Origin: Heliocidaris erythrogramma
Taxonomy: Eukaryota > Echinodermata > Echinoidea > Camarodonta > Echinometridae
Assembly (NCBI GenBank): GCA_025617745.1
Contig: CM046853.1
Span: 36,402,625 to 36,466,624 of the forward strand
Length of the DNA: 64,000 nt
Direction: 5' to 3'
The first letter of the stretch is position 1; every line of letters begins with the position of its first letter. Both the position numbers and the translations under genes were made by a program. This document shows, piece by piece, positions 8,501 through 49,012 of the stretch. The notes below the pieces were generated by a model. That model saw nothing but the letters and a program-made list of their open reading frames with translations. It was not told the origin of the DNA and ran no database searches.

Positions 8501-9300
8501 GCATATACTGTCTGCTTTGTCAGTACTATTTGTGGTGCATAGATTGTAATTGTAACATGTGGGAAAATGTATGCGGGATATAAAAAATACATGTGTGCTT
8601 TTTGAAAACGGGAATTTATTTATGACAATTATATGTATATGATTGAATTAGAATTAGAAAAGTATTGATAATCATGTAATGATTATAAAAATTGATTTAC
8701 AAATCTTGTCAAAAACCCATTAGCAAGAATTTTCTTACTGTTAGTTTCTTTGTTTTTAATTATCCATGTATATTACTAATTTCATAACTGCATTGCCTAC
8801 TCAAACCATGTAATTGCAATATATAAAACAAGAAAAGATGACGATTTGTATGATTAAACAGTACACATAGCATACAAGAATCAATCCTATATTTCTTGCG
8901 TATACATGTAGATGTTATTGAGCAGAGACTTATAATTCTGTATTATTTGTAATTGTATGACAATGTGATTTGTTATAATTTTTATGCTTCTTTGTCCAAT
9001 ATGCATATATATTTGTGAAGAAAATATCAGTATATAACTGGAAAGATCATTTTTCAGAAAATAAATGTGTCAGATGTTAAATACAAATGAAAATGGTTTC
9101 ATGTTTTATATATTATTGTCCTTAAATTTTCACACTAAGTGAATCAAAGAACAGAATTTTTGCAATTCACCAAAGTTTCTTGCTGCATAAAATAGTCGTT
9201 AACAATTGGCGAAGATTTATGTTGCAAAAAGTAGTGTTTTTAATTTGAGAAGGGGTTGACATGCGTAATTGTTTCACAAATTTCAAAAATTAAAGTGTTG

Positions 9301-12300
9301 TGATTCACTTATACATTTCATATTTCTTGACTACCTCACATCAAATATTAAAAATCTTTATTGGTTATTTGTATGCAGACAGCACTAAATGATGGTATGT
9401 ACACTCTTATTTTCATTTATAATAATTTGATTGTTCTTTATTCTGAAAAGAAAAGAAAGATAGACACGCATATTTAAAAGACTACATACATCCCCATATT
9501 CAAACTTGACACCACTCAAACAGAAAGAATAATTTCCTTTATTTTCAGAACATAAACCTGGAAGAAAACAAAAGACCTTTTATCATATTCATAGAAAATA
9601 CATTGGCGATTTCACATCCACGACAGGGATTATCATTTTTCAATAATTTAGTAAAATAAACAGTATATACAATAATTACATGACACATTGAAAGATGATG
9701 GATGAATATTTATATTCAGATTAAACATTACTTACACAGAGAAGGCAAGACATCTGACACAAAAACAAAAGAAATATATATGTATGTCAGTGTAGATGTA
9801 AAGGGATATGGAAATATAGGTGGGATGGTACATCAGTGAGCACTCATGAACTTCTTATCTATATTCTGTGCACAAGCGACTCTAGAAAACAAGTAATTCT
9901 CATCTAAACTGCATTGAAAAGAAAACCAAATTTCACATGCCTACGGGTATATTCTTAAAGGGAAGGATCACACATGTATGTATACAAAGTTATGCATGAA
10001 TTGATAAATATTTGTTTATAAAAAGATGTTCGTGATGACAAGAATGCACATTAGATTACTCTCTAACACGTATACATGATAAGCTACATTGTATATACGT
10101 AGAATAAATATAGGTGTGTGGAAAAGGGAAATACATTTTTTTGTTTCGTCACAAAAATACTTCTGTTTTTATCACATTACAGTTAAAGACCAACACATAT
10201 TGCTGAAAAGAAATTCCTTGAGTACAAAAGTCATTAATATTTGATCAATAAGCTCAATGTTAGCTCTATTTTATTTATTTTTCAGCAAATACCTGTTCAT
10301 CTTCAATATGGATCTAATTAATTTTCCATCCATAAACTAAATTTCTCTGATATTTTTGTTGAAAATCTATCAAAATCCAACACATACCGGTACATGTATG
10401 TCAGGTAACTGTACTTTATGTTTAAATAATGTGTATAGATGTTTAAACACAATTGAATCAAACAACTTACATAATAAGTTTCCCCATTTGTGGAGCTTTT
10501 TCCTTCTTTGCTTTCCAATATTTAAATTATTTTATTTTATCAGATAAAGAAATAACTTAAAAGAAAGACACCTTCCATAACATACATGTATAATTATATA
10601 TTTACAGTATTCTTTGTATTTTCACTTGATAACAATTCTGATTAAATCTTAATCACATGTGAATTTAAATTATGATACCACTCATTTTAAGTTTGATTTT
10701 CAATGTAAAGAAAGCCATAAAAACAGCACATTCTATCCACTTCATAATATACACCAAGATAATTTACAAAATTGTACAATGAATATTCTATCCTATCAAT
10801 ACACCTTCCATTTTTTTGAGCAGTAGATCTTGCTTTTCACAAATATTTGTTTTGTGGGATGATTTCAGCAACTTTTGCAGATATGTAAATTTGTTTTTCA
10901 CAAAGTAAAAAATTATGGCATGACCATTAGTTGTTCAAGAAAAATACAATATTGAAAAAAAAACATTTGCTTTGATCAGCAGATTTTCCATGGATTTTTG
11001 AAGGAAGGTGTTAACAGAAGCACACTATTTGCTAACGAATGACAAGGTGTTATATGGCGAGAATATATTAGGTTAGGGTCTAGTTTATATACCAATGCAA
11101 TTTCATAAGCAGAGCAAAGTGGAAAAGTAGTTTAAAAAGTAACAGTAAAAATATCTGCCGTATCAGACTGAAAGCACATATTTTCTTCTGTATTTCGTTT
11201 CTGAAAATTGCATAGAATAAAAGAATATTCTTGCGATATCAGGACGTTCACTGTATTTTCCCTTTCCTTGTCTTTCCACTTTACCTACTCTCTCTGTCAA
11301 AAAAAAAACAGATCTGAGGATGTTTCGTGAATATATTGCTATAGATATACCGACTATGTTATGACTACATGTATGTTATTGCCACATGTGGTAAATACAT
11401 GGAGATGAATATGACTTGACGGTTTAATCTTTGTCCACCACGTAGGTGCTAGACATATCAATTTGTTTGTTTGGAGCCAGAAGGATGTTAACTCTGTGTT
11501 AAAGTGTAGAGTTAATGCCCTTCTGGCTCAAAACAGACAATCTTTTGATTCAGGTATTTTACTAAATGAACTAAAATTGATCATTGAATCTATTCAAGAT
11601 TACTTAATTGTCAGTTTTATGATAAACTATTACTGGTAAAACATGTTATTGGCTTTACATTGGCATATCTTATTGAATTATTCCCATGGATGAATTAATC
11701 TCTTACATGCCATTAATACAATTTCTTTTCAAAAAGTGTTCTTTCTATCATTTCTCTTGTCTTTTACAACAAATCATTTTGATCAACACACTGGCCTATT
11801 CCTTTTAGCACCAATGAAGTATAACGTCTTTTCATGCAAGGCTACAAAGTTGATTTCCCTTCTTAACATGTCTCTTTCTCACTGCGATAAATAAAGTTTG
11901 ATATATAAGTTGGTTTGATTTTTCACAATAAGCTGGAATTCAGTTGTGAAAGAATAAGAAAGAATATTAACATATTTTATTTTTTACAAACAATACAAAT
12001 AGTTGCTTGTCTTCTCATTATGACCATATCTCAAAAGAATCTAGCTTAACTTCCTCAAATCATTAATTGAATCAAACAGCACAAGTGCCACATTCCCATT
12101 GTACAAAAATTTACTTCAGCACATTATTTCAAAGTAAAGTCATTTGACCGACAGAGTCCAACAAACAGAATACAAGGATAGAAGCTTTCTCTCAACATAT
12201 ACAAGTTACCATCATTTACAGCTCTTACTTATAGCGTTGTGTGATCTTTCTACATTTGCAGTCACATAGATCACACTTTTCAATCGCTGATTCACACAAT

Positions 12301-12981
12301 GTCTTACCGCATTGCACATTTTTCTTCTGCTCTGCATGATTCATTGTTGACAGTGTAAAAATCCATATCCAAATGGTTATCACGCTCCAATCCTATTCTC
12401 TTCCGGGTAAAATATTCAACTGGAGAAATACTGAAGAATGCTGAGTTCATTCGGGTTCTTTGTACAGAATCAGTACGCTTCTGTATTTCAGCTGACCATC
12501 AGCAAGCTGCATTTGACTGCATGCTCTCAACATGAGATCATGATATTACATGCTCAACTACACCATGGTCAACTAGATAAGGAGCTACGATGTATGTGTG
12601 AAGGAATATTTTAGCACATTCATCAACATGGATGTCATAGTTATGTGGCAGATGTCCTTTTCCAGCAAGGAGTTTAATTTAGAGTCCCATATTAGGCTTA
12701 GAAAGTAAACCACCTTGAAGCAGACAACCCAGATGACAGAAAATTTAGTTCTATGACTGATAAATTTTGGAATCTCTCTTTATAACTCCGCCATGAAGAA
12801 GCTTTGCATAAGGTAATCCTTCTCTGCCATTCACATTAACAATTCTTCCTTTCAAGTCATCATGATAACTGAGCAATTCCTCCAGTCTTAATTTGTCTCT
12901 TTGTAGTAAGAAAATCAACAACGCAGCATGAAGAAGTTTGGTCAAAGTTAAAGTTTTATCATAATAATCTCCTCTCCCCAA
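9301..12981 (-). other. THSD7 3' UTR and/or intergenic AT-rich sequence
   Basis: Non-coding, AT-rich. Possible minus-strand poly(A) signals (TTTATT on the + strand) occur near 9438, 9538, 10270, 10532 and 11976; the true 3' end is not determinable here. A short hairpin repeat sits at 11474-11529. Confidence 0.5.
11474..11529. repeat. Dispersed hairpin family, copy 1 (intact)
   Basis: A 56-bp palindrome with outer arms GAGCCAGAAGG and CCTTCTGGCTC and inner arms around TTAACTCT/AGAGTTAA, forming a stem of about 22 bp with a short loop containing TTAA. Related hairpins lie at 17076, 17417, 41593, 44991, 50466, 52292 and 63121. Confidence 0.8.
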
Positions 12982-13209
12982 TCAGCACTGCGATCCGACC
13001 TCGGTCCCATCTCTTGAAAACCGATAGCTGACGTACGTCGACTGATTCCCTAGCGCGAACCCATCGCTCCTCCTTGCTAGCTCCTTCTCCACATCCCTAC
13101 GCTCCCTAGTCGGGGCTGTTGACGTCGCCGTGCACGCAGCCACGCTACGACGGTTGACCACCGCTGCTTGGCCCTTCTCAATCTCTGTATTCTGTTTGTT
13201 AACATCTAG
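12982..13209 (-). CDS. Putative stop-codon-readthrough extension of THSD7 (75 codons)
   Basis: Directly after the TGA at 13212-13210 the same frame continues without a stop for 75 codons (13209-12985) to a second TGA at 12984-12982. The sequence at the first stop is TTA-TGA-CTA-G, and UGA followed by CUAG is a documented high-efficiency readthrough context in animals. The block is visibly GC-rich while DNA below 12980 returns to AT-rich. The encoded peptide is hydrophilic and basic, with residues such as VNRRSVAAC, RERRDVEKELARRSDG, STYVSYRFSRDG and a final GSQC. No hydrophobic segment is visible. It would lengthen the cytoplasmic tail of the membrane protein. Alternatives are a sequencing error or polymorphism at the TGA, or a GC-rich UTR element. 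The reading frame is seen directly; use in the cell is inferred. Confidence 0.6.
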   Translation of the reverse strand, partial: LDVNKQNTEIEKGQAAVVNRRSVAACTATSTAPTRERRDVEKELARRSDGFALGNQSTYVSYRFSRDGTEVGSQC

Positions 13210-13315
13210 TCATAATTCGATCTCGCCCGTGTATTTCTTCTGGACGGTCTCGTCCCAGTACATGGAGTAGTCTGGTTCAGGCTTTTTCTCCTCCTCTCTC
13301 TTCTTGGGTGCACAC
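13210..13315 (-). CDS. THSD7 exon 23 of those visible: cytoplasmic tail and first stop
   Basis: Acceptor TGCAG at 13316-13320. It encodes CAPKKREEEKKPEPDYSMYW, then DETVQKKYTGEIEL and TGA (13212-13210). The C-terminal I-E-L fits a class II PDZ-binding pattern (hydrophobic-x-hydrophobic). The stop context is TGA CTAG; see the extension at 12982-13209. Confidence 0.9.
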
Positions 13316-16300
13316 CTGCAACAATAATAAATACGAGTAAAACAGTCGGATGATTCTAAATGCTTCAAATTCTTAAGTACCAAGATATATTTCCTACTTT
13401 AGAGATCAAATGATGAACATTAGACAAAAAAAAAAGAAAATGAAAAATAAATTAAGTAGTCTCATTGTGCTTTGAAGCCAACAAATAAAAGAGTCAAATG
13501 ATGAACATATACATATACATGTATCTATATATATATTCATTTATTCATGTGGATGTCTTTAGACATACATGTATAAGAATATCTGAGACTTTTTTTAACT
13601 GACATAGTTCAAACATCCTACATTATATCCTTTGCACTACAAATATAAAACAAATAAAACATCCAGAAAATTTATTAATAACTGTCCTTTTGACAGAATT
13701 TCAGTTAGGGCTGAGTAAATGTAAGTAAAATGCAATATCTTTAGATACAGTTCATGAAAAGGTATTAACTTTTTCACTTGCAATAGTAAATAATTAATTA
13801 AAGCAATAAACGATTGTTGGTGCTACATTAGTATTAACCGCTTGACAATAGTGACCGATAAACCCAAGGTTCCGTTGGGGTTTATGGAAAGTGCATGTCA
13901 TACCAAAAATAAAACATATTCAAATGGTTAATTTAGTAGAAATAGAACATTTAGATATCATGGCGTGATGTATGTCCGAGATACTTACTTAGCACAGCAG
14001 AGAACTACGGCAACTATGACTATGAGAAGAACTACAACTGCTGCAATGGCATACACCCAAGGAGGAAGCGAAGCTGAAATCAAGCAATCAAACAGAGAAC
14101 ACTGTCAGAATAAATTCCAAGGTTCCTTTAACTGAATTTAGAATAGATATCTTTCACACAAAAAACACCCAAAAACTAGTGGTATACATGTATGTTACAT
14201 ATTAGGTTAGAGAAAGATACAACTTTACCCTAAACATCAAAACTGCTTCTAGAATATTTGATATACACTGAATCATCAGCTGGTGTTTGTGAGTACAATC
14301 GGAAATATGTAGACTTTGTAGTCTTTTACATCATTATAATGCTCTATACAATGATAGTACATGTATCATTATCTCAATCTTAATACATGCACATGTACAT
14401 GTATATAGCATATTTTTGCTCTCTCTCTCTCTCTTTTTCTCTTCGTCTCCCACTATCTCCTCTCTCTATGTCTCTCCATCTGTCTGTGTCTGTCTCTCCT
14501 CCCTCCCCCTCCTCATTCTTACAATTTGGAAAATTACAGACAAATAGATATTAATCTACATATTCCTAACATACCTAGAAATGATTGTTGTTGTGGTGAT
14601 TTGGGCGTTGCTGTAGGCTTCTTCGCTGAATCCCCTGTATTGATCCCTTGTTCCTCAGGATCGGTGAGTTCTCCGGCACTTCCAGGTTTACCTGAGGGTC
14701 CGGAGGATAGTGATGGGTCAGCCTCGGTGTGGACCATAGGGGACATGAATCCAACATGCAGGCATGCTTCTAGCTGACCACTGGACATACTGAAAGTAAA
14801 AAGATCAAAAGAGTTAGGACACTATTAGTAATACCGGTAAGCCAATTGCAATTCTTCACAGGTTATCCTGCAAATGTACATATTCCGTTACGCTTTACAG
14901 GTGTCATTCAGTGTATTCAATAGAATACAATCAAGGAAAATCATTTACATTGTGTTTCTTCATATAGCCATAGGCCCATATTTCAATCACAAATCTATTC
15001 GAGATATAATATCTAACTTTTCTCCAATCATAATTGAATGAGAATTGGGTATATATGCCTATAAATTTAGATATTATTAGAATATACAGTGTGGTCTTGT
15101 TATGCCTGTTGTATTAAAAGCTTTTGTATATTGGTACATTCACAGGTAATACAAGTTTGCAATATCTGTTTGACTTCATTCATATAAGAAGAATATCATA
15201 AGATGACAAGAACTGACATGAAGTCGACAATGATATCTGGCAACAAAGATCAAATTATTTCTATTTTCCATGAAAACTGATATTGCTAATTGATATCAGA
15301 TGATTGATATTGGACCCTGATAAGAGAGAAAGTAAAGGAATGACTTACCTGTATATGGCTTTGTAACCTGCATCACATACACATTTATTATCCTCAGTAC
15401 AGTATGATGAAGGGATATGGCATTCTGGATTACATGTAGATCTACTGGATGGCTTATCAAGAGTACATGCACCTGAGAACGAAAAATTAAAAAAAAGAAT
15501 GGTTTAGAAGAATCTGAGCATGCCGTAAGAATAAAAAACTGTTATTAAATAGTTAAGTTTCTACAGTTTGTTAATTAATAGCATACATTTTTATATTGAT
15601 ATAAAATGCGTAACTTGACAACACACAGAATATGTATAACCAAGAAATGTCTAAGCCATTGGATATACTTTGATTTTGCTTAAGCCTGAATTAGGCCCGG
15701 GTGGGGGGTTTGTCTCATTGAGATGTGTACATCATCCGCGTAAATCACTTTCTGAATAGCACCCTAAACGGAATTGCAGTAGAAGCAAGGAGTTATGTGA
15801 TATCTCCTTGGTAGGAGTAGTTTTGATACCCTAAACAGGGAAACACCTCTAACATCTCTGATTTTTATACCTTTAACAGCGATTTCCACGAATCTTCTTC
15901 TTATCACATCTGAATTTGATACCATTTTTCTTGATTTTTGCTGTTTTTGATACCTTAAACGCATAACCCGGGTTATCCGCCCAATGCTGGAAATATACCC
16001 TTTTTACCTGTTTTCGTGTACGCGGTTGATTCCCCCACCCCCCCCCCCCCCCCCGGAATTAATATTCAAAGGATTAAATATCACATACAACAACTTCCTA
16101 ACCTTATGCCTGCCTATTCTTCATATTTATGACATTGGGTCAAGTTTCGAAATACATGTGGAATTGTGGAGAGAACGCTACTTTCACATTATATGGCTGC
16201 AATGGAAATTCAGTATTGGAAAGAAAAAAAAAAGCCTTTGTAAGTTTGTATATTAAAGAAGGCACAGAAAATATGATATTAATTGGAAAAATAAAATGAC

Positions 16301-19300: not shown

Positions 19301-22300
19301 AGATATCTCAATTTAGATTAGCTTAGATAAATACATGAAGATATACAGATAAGATAAATAGAAAGAGAAGATAGATATAGATGTAGATAGCTAAACAGAT
19401 ATATTCTCTTATAAAGTTCTGAGAAAATATCCTACCAGTGTCGTGCATTCAGTCCATTGTGTAATGGCCCAATCATAACAAGGTACAGCCTTGCAGGGTT
19501 TATCTAGAGTTAGGGTAGCGGGACATGGTCGTCCCTTCTGGTTGGGCTCCTGCAGAATACTGCGATATCTTGTCTGTACAGCTGCAATAACAATTCAAGT
19601 GAAAAAATGGTTAAATGACATTTTATTCAGTCTTCACTTCCACAAAGATATAGGACTTGGTCTTGGGTAGTGATTTAGATTAAGACTTCTTGTATGGGTT
19701 AGGTTTATGGTTAGGGTTAGGTTATGCATATTGTAAGTCAAGCAATGGTCGTTTTAGAAAATGTTGTACAAGCAAAGAAATTTTCCATGCATAGTCAATT
19801 AAATGGACAAAGACATGCTGAACATTACATCATTCTGTGTACTATAAAAGTTGTAAAGGAATAAGTACTTAGGCTGAAAGTTTAGATTTTGCTTAGTTTC
19901 TGAGCTAAATGGTTTAGAATAAAAAACATTACTTTCAGCTATTATTCCAACCTTCTTCAAGTTAAGATGAGAATAGGTTATAAACAGATTTAAAAAACAA
20001 ACTTTTTTTTCTGCGGTCAGATCAAAAATTGGAAGCATACTGTACCGTAAATATCAATCCATTTTTATGATGTATCTTATTCATTCAAACAAAGCTTTGG
20101 CTACAAGAACGACAACAATATCATAAATCCACAAATGCACTGATAATATTTTGTGTGTATATCTTACCATCATTGCCACATGTCTTGGAGCATTCTGACC
20201 ATTCAGTCCACTGTGTGAGCTTACAGTCTACAGGGCATGCTACTTCACATGATTGAGAGGTAGTAAGAGGAGTTGATGTAGAAAACTGCGTACAAAATAT
20301 AAACCAAAGGTAAATGTTTGTGACTAAGAAAACCTTTCAGATCAAAAGTAGGTGGAAAAAAATGAATAGTTTCACATCTACCCCTGATTAAGATCAGAGA
20401 TACATGTAGATGTTGAAGAGTATGATTTTAAAAATGAGGAAAACAGATAAAAAAATAAATAAGTGCTTGGTACTGCACAATCAGAAAATAGCGTTGAACA
20501 CGGACATAATATACTCAAACAGTGTTGAACACGAACATAATTGTTCAATGCTATTTTTCAGATAAAAAATAGCATGAACACAAATGTGAAAACAATTTGG
20601 GGAATATGTCATCTTGATAATAAATAGTTTTACACCTCCCTCTTATGAAGATCAGTGGCAGATGTTTAAGGACGAAATAACATGAACACAAAACATGAAA
20701 GCAATTATGAAGAATTTATCAATTTCTGCAATGAATAGTTTCACATCTACTGGTGATAATCAAGTTAAATGGAGTGGAGAAGTGAAATGAATACATTTAT
20801 AGAAGGAATAGAAGGAATACATGTACAAGTATGTTTATGAGTTAAGAGTACATGTATATTTAACCCATTGAACACTAAGCGTGAAGTAAGTTGCATAAGA
20901 GTCTATGGAAAATGTGTATTATACCAGATTCAAATAATATCCAAAGGGTTACGGGAAAATAAGAAAATGATCCAGATGAAAAACAATTATGATTATAATC
21001 TGGTAGAATACATAGACACATGTAGCTGAGATAATGAGAAACCTTCATATCTACTATTGATTATGATCATGTATCTACAGCTACACATATTTCACTTACA
21101 TAGGAAAGTGTTCTGTGATGATTTTGCTGGTTGAAATTTCTTTCCTATGGTTTATGTAATGTTTAACATATCTGCTTATCTGATTATTAAACTAACCTAC
21201 ATTCACCTTGGTCTAATGGAACTACATAACTAATCAACTTTGAACCTACACACCTATGAAATACATAGCAAAAGTACTTTGATTTAAAAAAAAAACAGCA
21301 ACAGAAATTATAGAAGAATTGGAAATAACACATACATGTATAAGAAATTACAGCTGCTATTATTATTTGATACATAATATGACATACAAAATTGTAGTGT
21401 ACTCCATACATGTAGAATCAGTGGGGGGGGGGAACCTTTTGTCCACCAAACAAAAGGCCCCCCCCCACTTCCATTGTCCGAGCCGGACGTTCTGCTGCCT
21501 CTGTGTAGAGTAAATCAGTCTGTAACAGTCACCATAAGGAAACAGAAATAGTGGCCACCGTAGAAAGATGGGCTTTCTAGATACATTTATGTCCTTCACA
21601 TATTTCATTCCAAAGGGACATGTTATGAATGACCACTATAGACAGATGGCATTTACAGAATGGTGGCCACTCAGACTGGTATGAATGCATAGGATTATGA
21701 CTATTTTTACCTCTTCACACTTGGACACCTCCACGATGCGTCCATCGCTTCGCAGACATTGCAGGAGCCTATCCTGGATCCCTTCTCCACAGATCTTGCC
21801 CTTCTCCAGCTGGCAGGGGCTCCACTCAGTCGAGTTCCAGATGTAGGTGAAGCAGTTGATACCAGGCATACACTGCTCGCGCTCCATCAGGTGAGGGCAG
21901 CTCAGGGAGTGTTCATCGTCGCTGACAGCGATGTCGATCGGGTTACGAAGGATACGACGGTTGCGGGTACGGAAGGTATCTTGTGGACAGTCCTGAAAGG
22001 CAATAATTCATATGATTTATACATAAAAGAATAAAGTAGGAGGGTTTTTTTTTTCCTTTCTTTCTTTCTTTCTTTCTTTTGCTTTCTATCTTTCTTTTTT
22101 TTCCTTCTCTGTCTCTTACAATCAGTTCTTACGTGGACATATTGTCCATTCTGTGCAGCTGCTGACCACACATTGATCTGGACAATGTTCAATTTAAGCA
22201 TCTACTAGTTCAGGCTTTCTGCTCACATACATGTATATAATCTTACTTCTCTCTCTCTCTTTCCTTTTCTCTCGCGATAATAGTCAGTTCTTACCTGTGG

Positions 22301-25300
22301 ACATGTAGTCCATTCTGTCCAGCTGCTGACCACACATTGTCCTGGACAATGTTCAATACAAGCATCTACTAGTTCAGGCTTTCTGCTCGCATCACACTCC
22401 GATAGGTTAGTTACTTGTGCTCGGAAACCATGGTCAATGGGAATCACACAGCTGGAGAGTAAAAATATCAAAAACACCAACATAAAACGATAAATCAATG
22501 TCTAATGAAGATACTATCTAACATTTTCACTATTGAAAATAATTGTTCATCATAGTACATATAGTTGCATTGTTGATGAAAAGGGATTTTACAAAAAATG
22601 ATCAGTGTTTAGTGAATGAAATTTAATGTGAATTTCAGTATGAACAATCATAATTCTTCTTGTACCAAAGTACAAATAAAACCTACAATCGCAGACATTA
22701 TCATAACTACAGGTGGAATTTCTGAGGAATTCTATATCATTGTCTCCATTCACACAATATTCCTGCTCACCACAATTTAGACAGATTTTTTCAACATGTA
22801 TATTAAAAAGTTAATTTTTAAGTCAGAGAGCGCACTTACGAGACACCTCTCCTTTGGACGCCATATCCGCAATCCTGTCCATCATTCGTACCGATGACCT
22901 TACTGACGGCACAGCTCTGCCAGTCTCCGGCCTTCCAAGATGCGTCCAATCTACCAACACCCCATCGGCATTTCTTCCTCTCATCAATCTGAAATTTTCG
23001 GAGAGAAACAGCGTTCAAACAATCCACGTTTATTTTCCAACATTAGAGGTGTCATAGTCGAGTGGTTTAAACACTTGACTGGAGATGGGAAGGTCGTGGG
23101 TTCGAACCCCGGCACAGCACTACTGTTCTTTGGCAAGACATTAATCTACATTTGCCACTCTCCACCCAGGTGTTAAATGGGTACCGGCAGGAATTAATTC
23201 CTTGAATGTTGTGAGCACCTAAATCGGTAACCTAGCTAGAACCGTGGTAATATTGGAGCACCAGGAGCACCATACAAGGTGGATATGAGCGCTATATAAA
23301 TATCCAATATTATTATTATTATTAAGTTGCTAACTTTAACCCTGGACCAAACACTTTTCCTAATCCTCTCACCCTAACCATAAACCTAACCTAAAACCAA
23401 GTCACAACCCCTACACTAGCCTTATGTGTCTTTGGCAACATAAAGCTTAGGGCTATTGTCGCAGGAGCAAATGCTCAATCATCTTGTGAACATATTTTTA
23501 ATATCCTTGATATTAGGTAAATGACTTCAAACTGTAAAAAAGATACCATCTATACTACTGAACTTACCCATTCGGTGCTATGCTCTGGACATGGTCTGCC
23601 TCCATTTGATGCTGGCTGTAGAATCTGCTGCCATCTAGAGGTCGAGCCTATGCCGCTTTGCATGCGACCTGTACATGACCTCCAGTCGGACCAATCACTA
23701 AGTACACAGTCCACCGGGCAGGGGATAGCACAGTGTTCTTCCATGAAATCTTGGGTAAAAAAAATAGAATTGTGAATAACAATTAGAATAGGAGCTATTC
23801 AATCACAGCTCACTAAAACCATTTTTTTTTAATTCAGTAATAAAAGAGGTTTTGGCTGCCATGTCTTGATTAATGTGCAAACAAGTAGTAAGTGTTAATT
23901 ATCATAAAATCAAAAACTCGCAAAACTGTCTAACTGTGTCCATAGTGTCATCCATGAAAATATCTGTACCGATCTTGAAGTGGAAAGTATTTTTAGATTT
24001 CTATTTCACTTAAGTTAAAAGCAGAATATGTAGCTGCTTTGTGCTTTAAAAGAGAGATGTACATGTATATGTGTTCATATTTCACACTGAAATATATGAA
24101 ATATATGTATATTATTTTCAGTACCCTCATGCAGCTTGGCTAGCACCGGGGTAGTAGGAGTACTTGGCACCTAGCCTTGAGCATCCCTTGGGATGAACAC
24201 ATGTAATCTATATGTTAATGTAACTATTATCATTGTTCTCTATTTGATGGTACACATTAAACCAGATTTTATGAGTTTCATAGGGTACATTCTTTACAAA
24301 AAAAATGATTATTCAATAGCCATGTCCTTACCCTTTTCAGTTCCACAATGTGTTACATCCACATATCTATCATCTTGATCCAGACACACAAGGGGTCGAT
24401 ATTTGATGCCATTCCCACACTCCAGCTCTTCATCAAATCTATTTCCTCTTAATCCCTGCACCTCAAAGTGAGGTCCTCCAAGAAGGCAATCGGACCAGCT
24501 ACCTTTTGGGACAAGGCGGTAAGAGGGGCACTTGCAAGGGCGTGTCTCGGTCTTGGGGTATATCTCAGAGTTCAAGCAGTCTATCTGACGCGTGCTGCGA
24601 CCTGTATGAAGATAATTTGACATAGGTATTTACTTGCATGTCTACTAAACGATACTTGTTTCAATGGAAAAACTTATATGTCTTGAACTTCAACAAAATC
24701 TGGTTCAATTAATCTAGGCCCAAAATACATATATAGAAATGAAGATGTTCCATGAAAAAATCATGACATTGTCATAGATAGATAATCAAATGTTTCATCA
24801 TAATAATAGACAGACATCATTGATAAATGAAAAAACAAAGATGAATATGAAAAAAATGTTTTGTAGATCAAGGCACTGTTCTATTTGATCATATGATTCA
24901 GACCAATTTTCTGCAAAATAACATAACTAATTTCTACCAACAAAAGATTCATTCTTGAGCACAATGTCAATCACAAGGTCAAGCCATGTCCTTATATGAC
25001 CCTTTAACCCAGACGGTAATGTATCATGGAAATTCCTCCTTGTTTACTTCTTATAGTAAGTTTCCAATTAAACGATCTTCCTGACAAACAATAGCTTGAA
25101 ATCTACAAACAAATAATTGAGTCAGGTTTACATTCCAAATTGTTTGATTTCATGCTAGTTGCATTCTAACCTGTCAATCAAATGTATATTACAGGAACTG
25201 TGCTGCCTGTAATTAACACTGCAGGGATTCAATGTATGATGTTGTTTTCAGTTTTCAATTTTTGGAAGCACTTATCCCATCTTAAAATTCTAAAAGAAGA

Positions 25301-28300
25301 ATATATTGATTCTCATCAATATTTTAAAAGCAAAATGTAAGCAAAATTTCAATCAAATGAATACTTAGTTAAGTACATTACATGCAGTCTGTAATTTCAT
25401 AAACTATGATGTCTGTAATAAACATAATAATTATAATTGTAACTTCAAGGATAATTATAGAATATCGTACAAACTAGTTTTAATTCATTTCAGAAATACA
25501 TTCAGTTAGGTACAGCATATGACCAGTTTTCACTGTTGACTTTAATACAGGAATGAATGGCTACTCAGAAAAAACAGACAAGAAACTTTTGTGAATTTCA
25601 CAAGGGGACAAATTCTTACTTGATTAACAACATAACCAGCATTAATCTTGTTTTACAGTATACTCTGATCTATTAAACTTACCCTGAACTCTGCGTCTTC
25701 TAATCTGTGTGCCAGTGCATTGAGAATGACAATTACTCCATGGTGACCAATCTGTCATCCTGCAGTCATCCTCACATGCTATCCTACATGGTTCTGAAGA
25801 TAGAGGAATCGGTGGTCCGTACTGCAGACACAGGTCACTCTCCATTATGCTACCATCACTCCGTTCACACTGGATACCTGAAAGAAATTGAAGAAATTAA
25901 TTCATGAATTTAATTTTTATAACTCAATTTCGATTGAATTTTGATATAACATGCATTTCCCATAGTCCCTGGCCAGATTTATCTTGAGCTTAGTATTCAA
26001 CTGGCTAATTTCCTCAGTTCACAAGTGTTGTCTGATGTGGGAGGATTAAATATTACCATATTACCAAATATTACCATGTACTTCGACAAATGAATTACAT
26101 GTACCATGTATTTTGCCAAATGAATAATGAATAAAATAAATAAATGTAAAACAAATTCACTGTAATTTATTTCCTGTACATTGCTCATTGTAAAAGCAAC
26201 AACAACAAAACCTGCTTCTCATTTAACATTATGTAGTGTTTCAACCTACTGAAGGCATCAAATCAGCTATTTTAATATCAGTGCTTGATTATGATTCCTT
26301 CTAAAAAGGTAACATATTACAGTTAATAATAATCTGGATATAGTTTCAAATCATGAAAATATACTTAACAAATACTCAGCATAGAGTTACTTGTATGGTG
26401 ACTATAAACACATGCACAGGCATTCAACACGCATGTGGTGTACTGATCGAGAAGCTCATACCAATGTCACTTTCAACAAAAAGCATTTGAGATAAGCCAT
26501 AGAATTAAGTCAGGTACCATGAAATTACAAAATATGAAGGGATGAAAAAGGAATTTTACCTCTGGTTTTCAACCCATCTCCACATTCTTCCTGAATTCCA
26601 TCCATACTAACGACATCTATCCCTGTCAGACGACACTCAGTCCACGTGCCTACCAACCAGGTGTAGGAATAGCAGGAGTCTGGCTGGTTGCAGGTTCTCT
26701 CTTCCCGGAGTAAGGTGGGACACTCCTCGCCTCCATTCTGGGGCTGTTGTAAGATGTAACGCCTCCTCTCTTGGGTAGCCAGGGATCCGTCTAAGGATGA
26801 AAAGATAAATTCTTAGAATTAAGAAGCACAGGAGAGAGAGAGAGAAAGCAAGTGAACGATGATGATAGATGGTGCCATTTTTTATTCCTTTAGACCTTTA
26901 GAAAATTCTGAACAGATATGGTTAGTATGTAATGTCTCCTGTCTTGCATAGCCAGGGACCCATCTATAGTTACTGTGTTAAACATGGAATTATCAGAATA
27001 AAGGAATGCAGTTCTAGAGAGAGAGAGAGTTAGGGAACAATACCTAATGGCTTGTTGCAAGTTCTCTCTTCATGAAGTAGGGAAGGACACTCCTCGATGA
27101 ACACCATCAACATTGAAATTACTTAGCAGCATGCCAAAGCATATTTTTAATTTTGTTACTTGATATTATTGGAAGGTGTCAAACAGGTCTTATTGTTAGT
27201 TAAATTATGAGTTCTAAAAAGTTTTATCAGTAACAATTATGTAAATGAATATACGTCTACTCAGCAAAAGTATATTAGGAGTAACTTAGAGTTAGGAGTA
27301 ACGTGGGTGATAAGGTTGTAGGGGGATACATGTATTTAAAATGAAAGCTCATTCATTTGATTTTGGGGGGCAAAATGAGCCATGTTTTTTAAATTTTGAA
27401 ATGGCATTGTGCACAATAGTCTTGCAGTAACCAATCCTCTTGCTAAGTTAACATTCAGACTTTCAGAGTAGCCCTCTCAATGGAGGGTCACTTTATGGCC
27501 CCTTTTGAACCTGGCCACTTTTTTTGTTTTGTTTTTTGCTGCATTATAGACAAAATATGATTCAATACTCACCTTTGCAAAAAAAAAAAATTCAAATAGG
27601 ATCATAAATGTAGCACTTCTATGATGATAGTGACTGTAAAATCCATTTTATGCAATTATTCAATGAGAGAATTTTAATGCAGGCTGAGTGACAAAAATTT
27701 GAACAAAATTCCAGGTGATCTTAAACTTTTGCAACAACTGTACATGTAACTGAAGATTTCATATTCAGAATGTGACCATGAAATTTGAGTATAATTTTCT
27801 CTGTAAGTCACCCTTTTTTCAAAAACAGAATCGAATAATCTTCATTGTTAAACACATGCCTTTCTTTAACATTCTTCAAGTTATAATCCTTAATTTGTTG
27901 TAATGCCCTCTTTTTTGGCTGCTAAGCATCATTCAAAATAAGACACTACATGAATCTTAATGGGTTGTCTTCCCTTATAACTCAGGCATAATCAGCACAC
28001 ATTCCGCAACTTCTCTGACTTGTATTAATCTTGTCCTGCCCCCTTTTGCTTTGCCTCCCATACATCACGGGCAGGGCGCATGACGGCAACGTCAGACAAA
28101 AAGAAAAGAACGTCCTCAGGCAGTAAGAGGACTGGCAGAAAATTAGATAGCAATTACAGTGGAAATTGATGCTGTTTTCATGGACAGCAAATGCACCCAT
28201 GGGCGGTGGAGATGAAAAAGTAATGCCTCTTTGAAATGGATTTCGTACCTTCGATGGGATAGTGACCTCTGCATCCGATACCATGGTATTTAAAATCTGA

Positions 28301-31300
28301 ATGTTTTTGTTTCATTCTTTAAATGCGTGGGTGTGCAATCAACCCACTCTAAAAGTTGTTAACTGAACTGGTGAATAATTCAGAACAGATGTAAATAGAA
28401 TGTGTAAATAGAATTGAACAAATAAAAAAAATCCAAGATTCACTGTAAATGACATCAGCTCACTCCTCTAGTTATATATACATATATGTATTAATCCAGA
28501 CAATTGAACATCATATAAGACAAAAAGGAAATGGCTTTATTTAATAATCTTTTACAAAAGGGATACCTACCGTCGAATTGGTACACCACAATACTAATTT
28601 AAAAAAGAAGAAGCAACAAAAGAAATCTGTTCTGGAGAAAGATGGAAGGAATAGTTGGAGGGATAAAGTCACTAATGAAGAGGTATTAAAGAGGGTGAAT
28701 GAAGAAAGGAACCTGAGGAAAATAATTAATAGACAGAAGAAGAACTAAAAACATGTAGGACACATGAGTTTAATACATGCATATATAAAAAAATGATTAG
28801 AAGACACAGAACAACCTTAACAAATGTTTAGACTCTAAATCTAATGCAGAGAATAGTAGTAAGCGTTTGGAAATTGATATTTCTGGAGAGTACATTGTTG
28901 TAGCAATGCTGAATGGATGGCAGAAAGGAATAAGTAGACCGAGACCTGGGATTGTGCCTGAACTGAAAGGCAACTTAAATTATGACATGATGAAGAAGAA
29001 GGCTCATCACAGGGAGGGTTTGAGAAAAGACCAATCAGATGAGTCTACTATGGACCTGCCCATGCATGGGCAGAACACTTCAAGGAGAAGATATCATATA
29101 AAGGCATAGCATAAATTTACCTGAAGAGCATGTATTAGGGCATGGAGTCCAGTCTCCAAACTCAGATACCACACAATCCAGTGTACACTGCACCTCGCAG
29201 GGTCTGGAGAAAGGAGGACGCACTGGGGCAAAACATCTGCATAAGAGAAAAACAAGAGGAGATTTACAAAATGTATGAGAGGCTGTTATATTGAATTTGT
29301 TCTGTTTCAGAGAGCAGGCATAATATGTTCAGGGTATAATTACAATCCATCACAATAAATTTCATCATGAAGTCTACATGTACCTTTGGAATCATTCAGA
29401 ATCCTCCCTCTTGACAAATCTGGGATTAGAGAAATAGTAGCAAAGAATTCCTTACCCGATTGACTTTTGACTTTAGCTAGAAGATTTTCACTCCATTAAT
29501 CTACTATTTGTGCACTTACTTTTACTACTTCTACATCTTTCCCGTTTATCAACAGATTTGCTATTGATTCAGATCAACTGCATTTCTTTGTACGAGGTTG
29601 TCCTGGACTGCCAAATTGTTTAGTGTATAACTTTATATAGACACTTTACATGTCACAGAAGTCAACATGAGTGGTCCGATGCATGTTCGGAAAGTTGTCC
29701 AAAGCAGGAAAAGAGTTAACGTACCTTTTGTCTGGTGCAATTTTAGCTGGATTGATCCTACTGCAGGTGACGTTCCTGGTCTGAGTACCCATTCCACAGC
29801 TTCCATGCTCATCGGGTGTAACCATCTGCTCTATGTTTTCTAGACTCGGCAAACATTCTCCCCACTCGGTGGTGAGCCAACCAAAGAGGGTACAACTATG
29901 ATGGTTACAGACTCTTGTCTCTTTCATCTCAGCAGTTTCCATGTCAGGACAGGCTGCTCCACCTGTAGTCAAATTATAAAGTTACAGCTACTTGAATACA
30001 GAGTTGACAATTTAGTAGTGTTCCAATCCCTTGATGAGAAAATGGAATATTTACAATTTACAAAAATCAACATGGTGTGTACCTTGGCAGAAGGGGGTTA
30101 ACAAGTATTTTGGTCAAATAAATCTCAAATGTTTGGTTTTGTAGCAGGATTAAGAAATAATTTAGAGAAGTGGGCAATGCATGGATACTCAGTGCCTGAG
30201 GAGCAGTTGTCCCCAGAGCATGCGTCGTACACACTCAACAATCTCCATACTAACCTGGGCCAGGTTGAGCTACGATGGTCCTGTAGCGTTCTTGGAGCCC
30301 ACCAGGCCGGCCTGTAGACGATTCGCATGTCTGGGAGCATTCGCTCCACGGCCCCCACTCGCCTAACACACAATCGGATGAGCAGGGAGCTTCACAGGTC
30401 ACTTCTGTAGCAGGCCTGTTTGTAAGGGCCTCACACATTGCCTCATCTTCAACTGGAAGCTGGTGGAGAGGGTGGGAAGAACACAATGACAAATTTTAAA
30501 AAGTAATAAAAAGCATTTGTAGAATAATAAATGTTTAATGTCTAATGTTGCAACTTGATTATTAGGCAATCCTTAGTCATATTCAATCTATACGTACATT
30601 CAAATTTTAGACAACATTATAGAACAATAAAAAAAACATCAACGGTAAGATCAGTATGATTAGCTATTTCATGGAAAGACAAGATTACAGTGATTTCAAA
30701 GCAAAATAGTAAATACTTTTATGTTACTATACTAACTGCACATCCAATGCATATAGTCACACATGCCATACCATATACCCATCCATGAAATGCATATTCC
30801 TCTCTGTTTAATATTTGCAACTTATATTTGATATAAATGATACTAATTAAAGAACAAAGTGGATGAATAATAATGATAGACTGACAGGCTCATATTGGGG
30901 AGTAAAATGAGACTATATTGCTCTCAATATGATAATTCTTGGGCAATACACTAAAGTCTCCCCCTCAAAATCACTCCATACGACAAAATACTTTAAAAGA
31001 TTAACAAGGACTTCATACTTCTTGTGAGTTGATGCAGTGGACATTTCTGGTCATCATCCCTTCTCCACACATTGTCTGTGCATCACTTGGCTGGCACGTG
31101 GCCTCTTCTACTACCCATCTGAAGCAAGGTTGGATGTTACAAGGGGCATGTTCAGTCAGGTGGGGGCACTTCCTACCGCCGTGCTCTGGGGGTGCCACAA
31201 TCTCCCTTGAGCGATGTATGTGTCCTGAAAAGATCAACAAATATAAGGAATGAAAGCACAGATTTAGTATGGTATAGTGATCTGTATAGGTAAAAATGAT

Positions 31301-48626: not shown

Positions 48627-49012
48627 GCAAAATACATCATCATCTCGTTCTTCACCTCCACATGATCCTGGGGGTGTATCATAAAAGCTGTTCGTAAAGT
48701 TACGCATGACTTTACGAACGACTTGAGTATGAAATGCCAGATAGGATGGCCAAAGATTTTCCTGATGTTTTAACAAAGTGTGACTGTATTTCCAATAACC
48801 TCAAATGAATTATGGCAAAAAAAATATACTTTGCATTAAATATGTTTGTTATAATAAGAATGTTAATCTACATGTACATCTGCACAGTTCAACTTCGTAA
48901 AATTCGTAAAGTCATGCGTAACTTTACGAACAGCTTTATGAAACACCCCCCAGGTAGGATATTACATTCTGACCAAGCAGATGTCCTCCAAGCATACTTC
49001 ACCCTAAGGTAA
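48627..49012 (-). pseudogene. Partial copy of THSD7 visible exon 1, split by a TIR element
   Basis: 48956-49012 reads, on the minus strand, an acceptor TTACCTTAG then VKYAWRTSAWSECNILP. 48630-48668 continues the same exon (GSCGGEERDDD). Between them lies a TIR element (about 48666-48954). The copy lacks the CGGG...C end and the donor. Confidence 0.85.
48666..48954. mobile_element. MITE-like element with 40+ bp inverted ends
   Basis: Left end GGGGTGTATCATAAAAGCTG with TTCGTAAAGTTACGCATGAC; the right end is its inverted counterpart (AACTTTACGAACAGC ... GAAACACCCC). CCTGG/CCAGG at the edges may be part of the ends or a target duplication. Confidence 0.8.

Follow-up and report, generated by a model that had tools for sequence, protein, structure and literature searches.

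Where does the THSD7 protein of the sea urchin Heliocidaris erythrogramma end? In the 64,000-nucleotide stretch of DNA that we analysed (hereafter the window), the minus-strand frame that encodes the tail of this protein reaches TTA (13215-13213) and then a TGA stop codon (13212-13210), which is directly followed by CTA (13209-13207) and G (13206), and a re-reading of the minus strand confirms that the frame stays open for 75 sense codons (13209-12985) before it meets a second TGA (12984-12982). The original prediction had described this arrangement and had proposed the first TGA as a candidate for programmed readthrough. The question is whether this codon is only the ordinary end of the protein or also a codon that a share of ribosomes would read as sense.

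The THSD7 gene and its ordinary end

The gene at this locus appears to be an echinoid THSD7, a single-pass membrane protein with many thrombospondin type-1 (TSP1) repeats, as it displays the TSP1 repeats, the THS7A/B C-terminal domain, the transmembrane segment and the short tail of the family, which is described as including a human podocyte autoantigen. Two full-length homologues, P0001 and P0002, passed out of 1207 candidates. By tblastn, P0001 (1633 residues, from the Logan collection) is placed in ordered blocks on the minus strand from 48554 (its residue 357) to 13213 (residue 1633), and its residues 1-356 have no placement within the window. P0002 is annotated as THSD7A-like from the sea urchin Diadema antillarum, which fits the earlier guess that the DNA came from an echinoderm. 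The THS7A/B C-terminal TSP1 domain (PF23308) was matched just above its cut-off, at 28.9 bits against 27, over profile positions 1-23 of 40, and one TSP1 exon, searched by sequence against the PDB, had no match. Beside the main exons there are extra short THSD7 matches at 26923-27095 and 48949-49005, both on the minus strand, in which residues 740-755, 689-732 and 357-375 are represented; some of these may represent alternative exons or exon fragments that arose by duplication.

The transmembrane exon, ASLPPWVYAIAAVVVLLIVIVAVVLCCAK (13989-14073, minus strand), which was delimited from reading frames and splice sites and was too short to appear among the tblastn rows, ends AA/gtaagt and splices to the last exon at 13315. 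Its transmembrane segment is unchanged in P0001 and carries one change in P0002. The acceptor of the last exon scores 15.0, where the acceptors of THSD7, itself among them, range from 5.1 to 15.7. From this acceptor the reading frame encodes the canonical cytoplasmic tail, (K)CAPKKREEEKKPEPDYSMYWDETVQKKYTGEIEL (13213-13315, minus strand), and the exon runs on as ...MYWDETVQKKYTGEIEL TGA CTAG, giving a protein that ends in YTGEIEL; we take human THSD7A to have a similar acidic motif at its C-terminal end. The tail in the window is matched at 34 of 34 residues by P0001 and at 33 of 34 by P0002. Since both homologues terminate at the same L, the first TGA reads as the ordinary end of THSD7 and an assembly error at this point is unlikely. 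A DNA search found the last exon once in G000, the genome of the window (1.06 Gb in 26 contigs).

The open frame beyond the stop codon

The proposed readthrough extension, LDVNKQ...EVGSQC (12985-13209, minus strand), begins with the CTAG that lies directly 3' of the stop (13206-13209) and includes the peptide SDGFALGNQSTYVSYR. It had been predicted to be basic and hydrophilic; the second property is borne out by a low hydropathy of -0.82, but the extension is basic only mildly, with a net charge of +1.8 and a pI of 8.8. Pfam assigned it to no family and no tandem repeats were found over it, and it contains RRS motifs that, by eye, presumably resemble kinase sites. Between the exon start and 11981 the sense strand has no AATAAA site, so the exon could run beyond the second stop. 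On the opposite strand, an open reading frame of 74 codons (13046-13270, plus) overlaps both tail and extension and is probably a consequence of the GC content and of the codons on the sense strand. We also observed a sub-threshold Rfam match to mir-2003 at 11462-11541 (plus), which at 31.8 bits against a gathering threshold of 114 is probably a chance hairpin.

The original prediction described the open block as coinciding with a GC-rich island that gives way to AT-rich sequence, and both observations hold. The GC content is 0.50 in the tail and 0.57 in the extension, and falls to 0.35 in the following 232 nt and to 0.26 in 231 nt of the upstream intron; a three-segment maximum-likelihood fit places an island at 13319-12969, spanning tail and extension. 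The extension has a CpG observed/expected ratio of 1.18, whereas the THSD7 exons have 0.45, a difference that counts against the readthrough reading; it may arise because the end of the gene is unmethylated.

Such a composition bears directly on the reading in which the stop is ordinary, the GC-rich end of the exon happens by chance to contain both CTAG and the 75 open codons, and P0003, a sequence described below, is a close relative with a 3' untranslated region that has not yet diverged. Open runs of 75 codons begin at 2543 of 127,550 start points in the window (both strands) and at 211 of 1854 where the GC content is at least 0.5, so they are not rare in GC-rich sequence. When the extension was shuffled with its dinucleotides preserved, 2.8% of 20,000 shuffles were open for 75 codons, and at least 75 open codons come after 41 of the window's 2943 TGA triplets. 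The motif alone is not special, since the window has four copies of TGACTAG where eight would be expected; a long open frame follows it only at the THSD7 stop, the other three occurrences being followed by 10, 8 and 8 codons. A rough product of three assumed frequencies (TGA at about 40% of stops, CTAG at 1/256, an open frame at 2-3%) puts the chance of frame and motif together at about 1 in 20,000 to 30,000 per gene; the combination is thus unlikely at any one gene, but a whole genome should hold of the order of one such case by chance. Against the ordinary stop stands the GC edge at about the second stop, whose support interval (12990-12964) includes that codon.

Codon usage also favours the ordinary stop. 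A frame-specific codon score assigned 19 of 20 THSD7 exons to their true frame in leave-one-out trials; for frames 0, 1 and 2 of the extension it gave -0.09, -0.19 and +0.11, so that the extension's own frame is not favoured. The training exons are mostly Cys-rich and extracellular, and amino-acid composition therefore confounds this score; the result counts against readthrough, by a yardstick that is biased. A second score, which contrasts coding with noncoding sequence, is reached by none of 278 open noncoding windows, but mononucleotide shuffles of the extension match it (z -0.3), and it therefore reflects composition only. The sequence of the locus alone does not prove function, and the comparison with P0003 carries most of the weight.

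A relative that carries the extension

A search with the 75 residues against 5.8 billion proteins produced a single candidate and a single match, P0003, and a further protein search with tail and extension as a two-row alignment again found only P0003 (1 of 173 candidates). P0003 is a protein of 106 residues in ENA, encoded on one 6661-base contig, which begins inside the canonical tail, continues across both stop positions and the extension between them, and is 86% identical across the whole extension; scans of viral_contigs and genome_contigs gave no match to its DNA. It has W at both positions that are stops in the window, and these two residues probably reflect a call with genetic code table 4, where UGA is Trp, on TGA stops. 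P0003 would be the terminal exon of a eukaryotic gene that entered a public protein set after translation, it appears, with table 4. Miscalled entries of this kind can bring conserved readthrough extensions at UGA to light, and one could mine protein sets for them.

If W in P0003 were instead TGG, as it would be under table 11, the longer protein would be ancestral or a variant in that species and the stop in the window derived or polymorphic. This would need TGG at both of the positions that are TGA in the window, whereas a single table-4 call would account for both residues, and both of the full-length homologues (2/2) terminate at the same residue; we regard it as very improbable.

The original prediction called for conservation of the extension in relatives. 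This is borne out in one sequence, at the level of amino acids, in which the frame is open to the second stop and 65 of 73 aligned codons give identical residues, but the frame-specific codon usage described above speaks against the readthrough reading. The two indels, of +1 and -2 codons, keep the frame, and at a minimum 10 nucleotide changes of 219 separate the two extensions, only two of them in the last 39 codons. The W-L-D of P0003 determines no more than two of the bases 3' of the stop, a U in the second position and a G in the fourth.

Detectable similarity to P0003 ends at the second stop. Beyond it, a gapped protein alignment paired only three scattered residues, and 89 of 300 shuffles reached the score of a gapped alignment between the nucleotide sequence and back-translated P0003. 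Where the amino acid determines the base, the extension mismatches at 6 of 123 sites and the sequence past the second stop at 7 of 17 (Fisher p = 1.2e-4). The latter count comes from the best of 150 offsets, two of them tied, and hence from the one that most favours the null; without gaps, 20 of 25 such sites past the second stop mismatch. This loss of similarity implies a neutral divergence above a few percent, unless an insertion sits exactly at the second stop, which could mimic the edge.

The case depends on that divergence. We simulated neutral evolution by substitutions without indels and asked how often no stop arose while at least 65 of 75 residues, and 36 or more of the last 38, were kept. 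The probability was 0.48 at a divergence of 0.03, 0.18 at 0.05, 0.03 at 0.08 and 0.0075 at 0.10; at 0.15 it was 0.0 over 4000 runs. At a neutral divergence of 0.03-0.05, substitutions alone would not reject neutrality, and the 65 of 73 identities could then be explained by low divergence, as the ordinary stop requires; at 0.10 and 0.15 the same simulations argue against it. The openness of P0003 is not independent evidence, because its entry in the database depends on an open frame, and the frame-keeping of its two indels, which also speaks against an ordinary stop, is in part a matter of the same ascertainment. Of the 23 human genes with UGA_CUAG, 19 have no positive PhyloCSF score, a point in favour of an ordinary stop, and the four with a positive score are reported as the ones confirmed by reporters (PMC4132726). 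With the halt of similarity at the second stop set against these points, we consider an ordinary stop with a chance extension unlikely, though by no means negligible.

Routes past the stop codon and a proposed second protein end

An extension that is conserved as peptide might also be reached by routes other than readthrough. Alternative splicing that skips the TGA and links the upstream exon with the extension would likewise conserve the peptide, and there are donor-like sites at 13261 (score 4.5) and 12999 (7.2), against 1.7-12.4 for the gene's own donors; the second is close to where the extension ends, and the residues beyond it are kept in P0003. However, no acceptor within the extension scores above 2.3, against the gene's own 5.1-15.7, and the one with that score lies near the extension's end (13010), all of these scores being approximate, as the matrices were built from THSD7's own introns, which were chosen by simple rules. 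Moreover, the first 11 residues after the stop, LDVNKQNTEIE, are identical in P0003. Such identity would be unexpected of intronic sequence and is what entry of ribosomes through the stop itself predicts. We judge this route very unlikely. A-to-I editing of UGA to UGG (Trp) would produce the extension with no ribosomal readthrough, but the sequence around the stop has no unusually stable structure (z 0.53 and z 0.11, with no notable structure downstream) and the stop lies in a known high-readthrough context, which makes editing extremely improbable. Selenocysteine insertion, in whose favour stands the codon itself, UGA, is scarcely credible, as no SECIS element was among the four Rfam matches at E of at most 1 (9000-14000, both strands). 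Internal initiation was likewise rejected, the extension having no in-frame ATG. By sequence-based scoring, then, no alternative splice, SECIS element or internal start explains the extension, and together with the end of similarity at the second TGA this leaves the proposal of a readthrough candidate standing.

THSD7 has the defining feature of the UGA-CUAG class, a UGA stop followed by CUA(G). This context is reported to drive readthrough in four mammalian genes (PMC4132726), and the UGA CUA consensus was derived in PMC4359377, which counts 30 human genes with UGA CUA G. A further paper treats UGA CUA G as a high-readthrough motif and stresses the upstream context (PMC12233894). According to PMC4132726, UGA-CUA alone gives 1.5% readthrough, and reporters needed no more than 12 nt of 3' sequence for maximal readthrough, which fits the lack of RNA structure at the THSD7 stop. 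The locus resembles the vertebrate genes OPRL1, OPRK1, AQP4 and MAPK10 in having UGA followed by CUAG and a conserved in-frame extension, and in that downstream RNA structure is not needed (PMC4132726). It differs from them in being another gene in another phylum, known here from sequence alone, and in an extension longer than the 13 residues of MAPK10 (PMC4132726). The UGA CUA G context is also shared with LDHB (PMC4359377) and with MDH1, for which readthrough of about 3.5% is given (PMC4132726). The LDHB extension of 18 nt makes a peroxisomal form (PMC4359377), whereas that of THSD7 has 75 codons and ends in GSQC, with no peroxisomal signal by eye.

In insects and a crustacean, but not in the other animals tested, readthrough is reported to be abundant (PMC5100048, PMC3609751), and the cases there resemble THSD7 in that long conserved second open reading frames were recognised by a comparative signature (PMC5100048). 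In contrast to our echinoid locus, abundant readthrough is there confined to Pancrustacea, and the main text of PMC5100048 contains neither "urchin" nor "echinoderm". Echinoderms figure in PMC10471768 only in TGA/TAG ratios. In the titles and abstract openings of the open-access literature that we searched, we found no case of conserved readthrough in echinoderms and none that joins THSD7 with readthrough or THSD7B with a stop codon, in agreement with the original statement that no such report was known for THSD7 proteins.

Taken together, we favour, with a probability of about 0.78, programmed UGA-CUAG readthrough of THSD7, with the extension under protein-level selection and a second form of the protein with a longer tail, so that one message would give two versions of the protein. 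The ordinary product would terminate at the first TGA with a short conserved cytoplasmic tail ending in GEIEL, and the mRNA would stay in frame for the 75 further codons, on which we infer selection. A small share of ribosomes would decode the UGA, in its UGA-CUAG context, by a near-cognate tRNA; the candidates at UGA are those for Trp, Arg or Cys. The second form would thereby gain 76 residues in its cytoplasmic tail (75 plus the decoded stop), would end in GSQC and would no longer expose the conserved GEIEL end. Such a switch of the tail may exchange a possible PDZ-type carboxyl end for a hydrophilic, mildly basic tail, and a change of cytoplasmic partners might follow. It is possible, although doubtful, that this represents an old echinoid receptor with two ends, in which regulated readthrough switches between the GEIEL end, a possible class II PDZ ligand, and the 76-residue tail, whose end would be conserved in its own right; if so, one stop codon would decide the cytoplasmic partners of THSD7. 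This could be the first conserved UGA-CUAG readthrough described in echinoderms, whose eggs, in the case of sea urchins, can be injected with reporters. If the extension is translated, the vertebrate UGA-CUAG readthrough code would extend to echinoderms, which suggests that the motif works across deuterostomes, and a THSD7 protein would possess a testable cytoplasmic switch.
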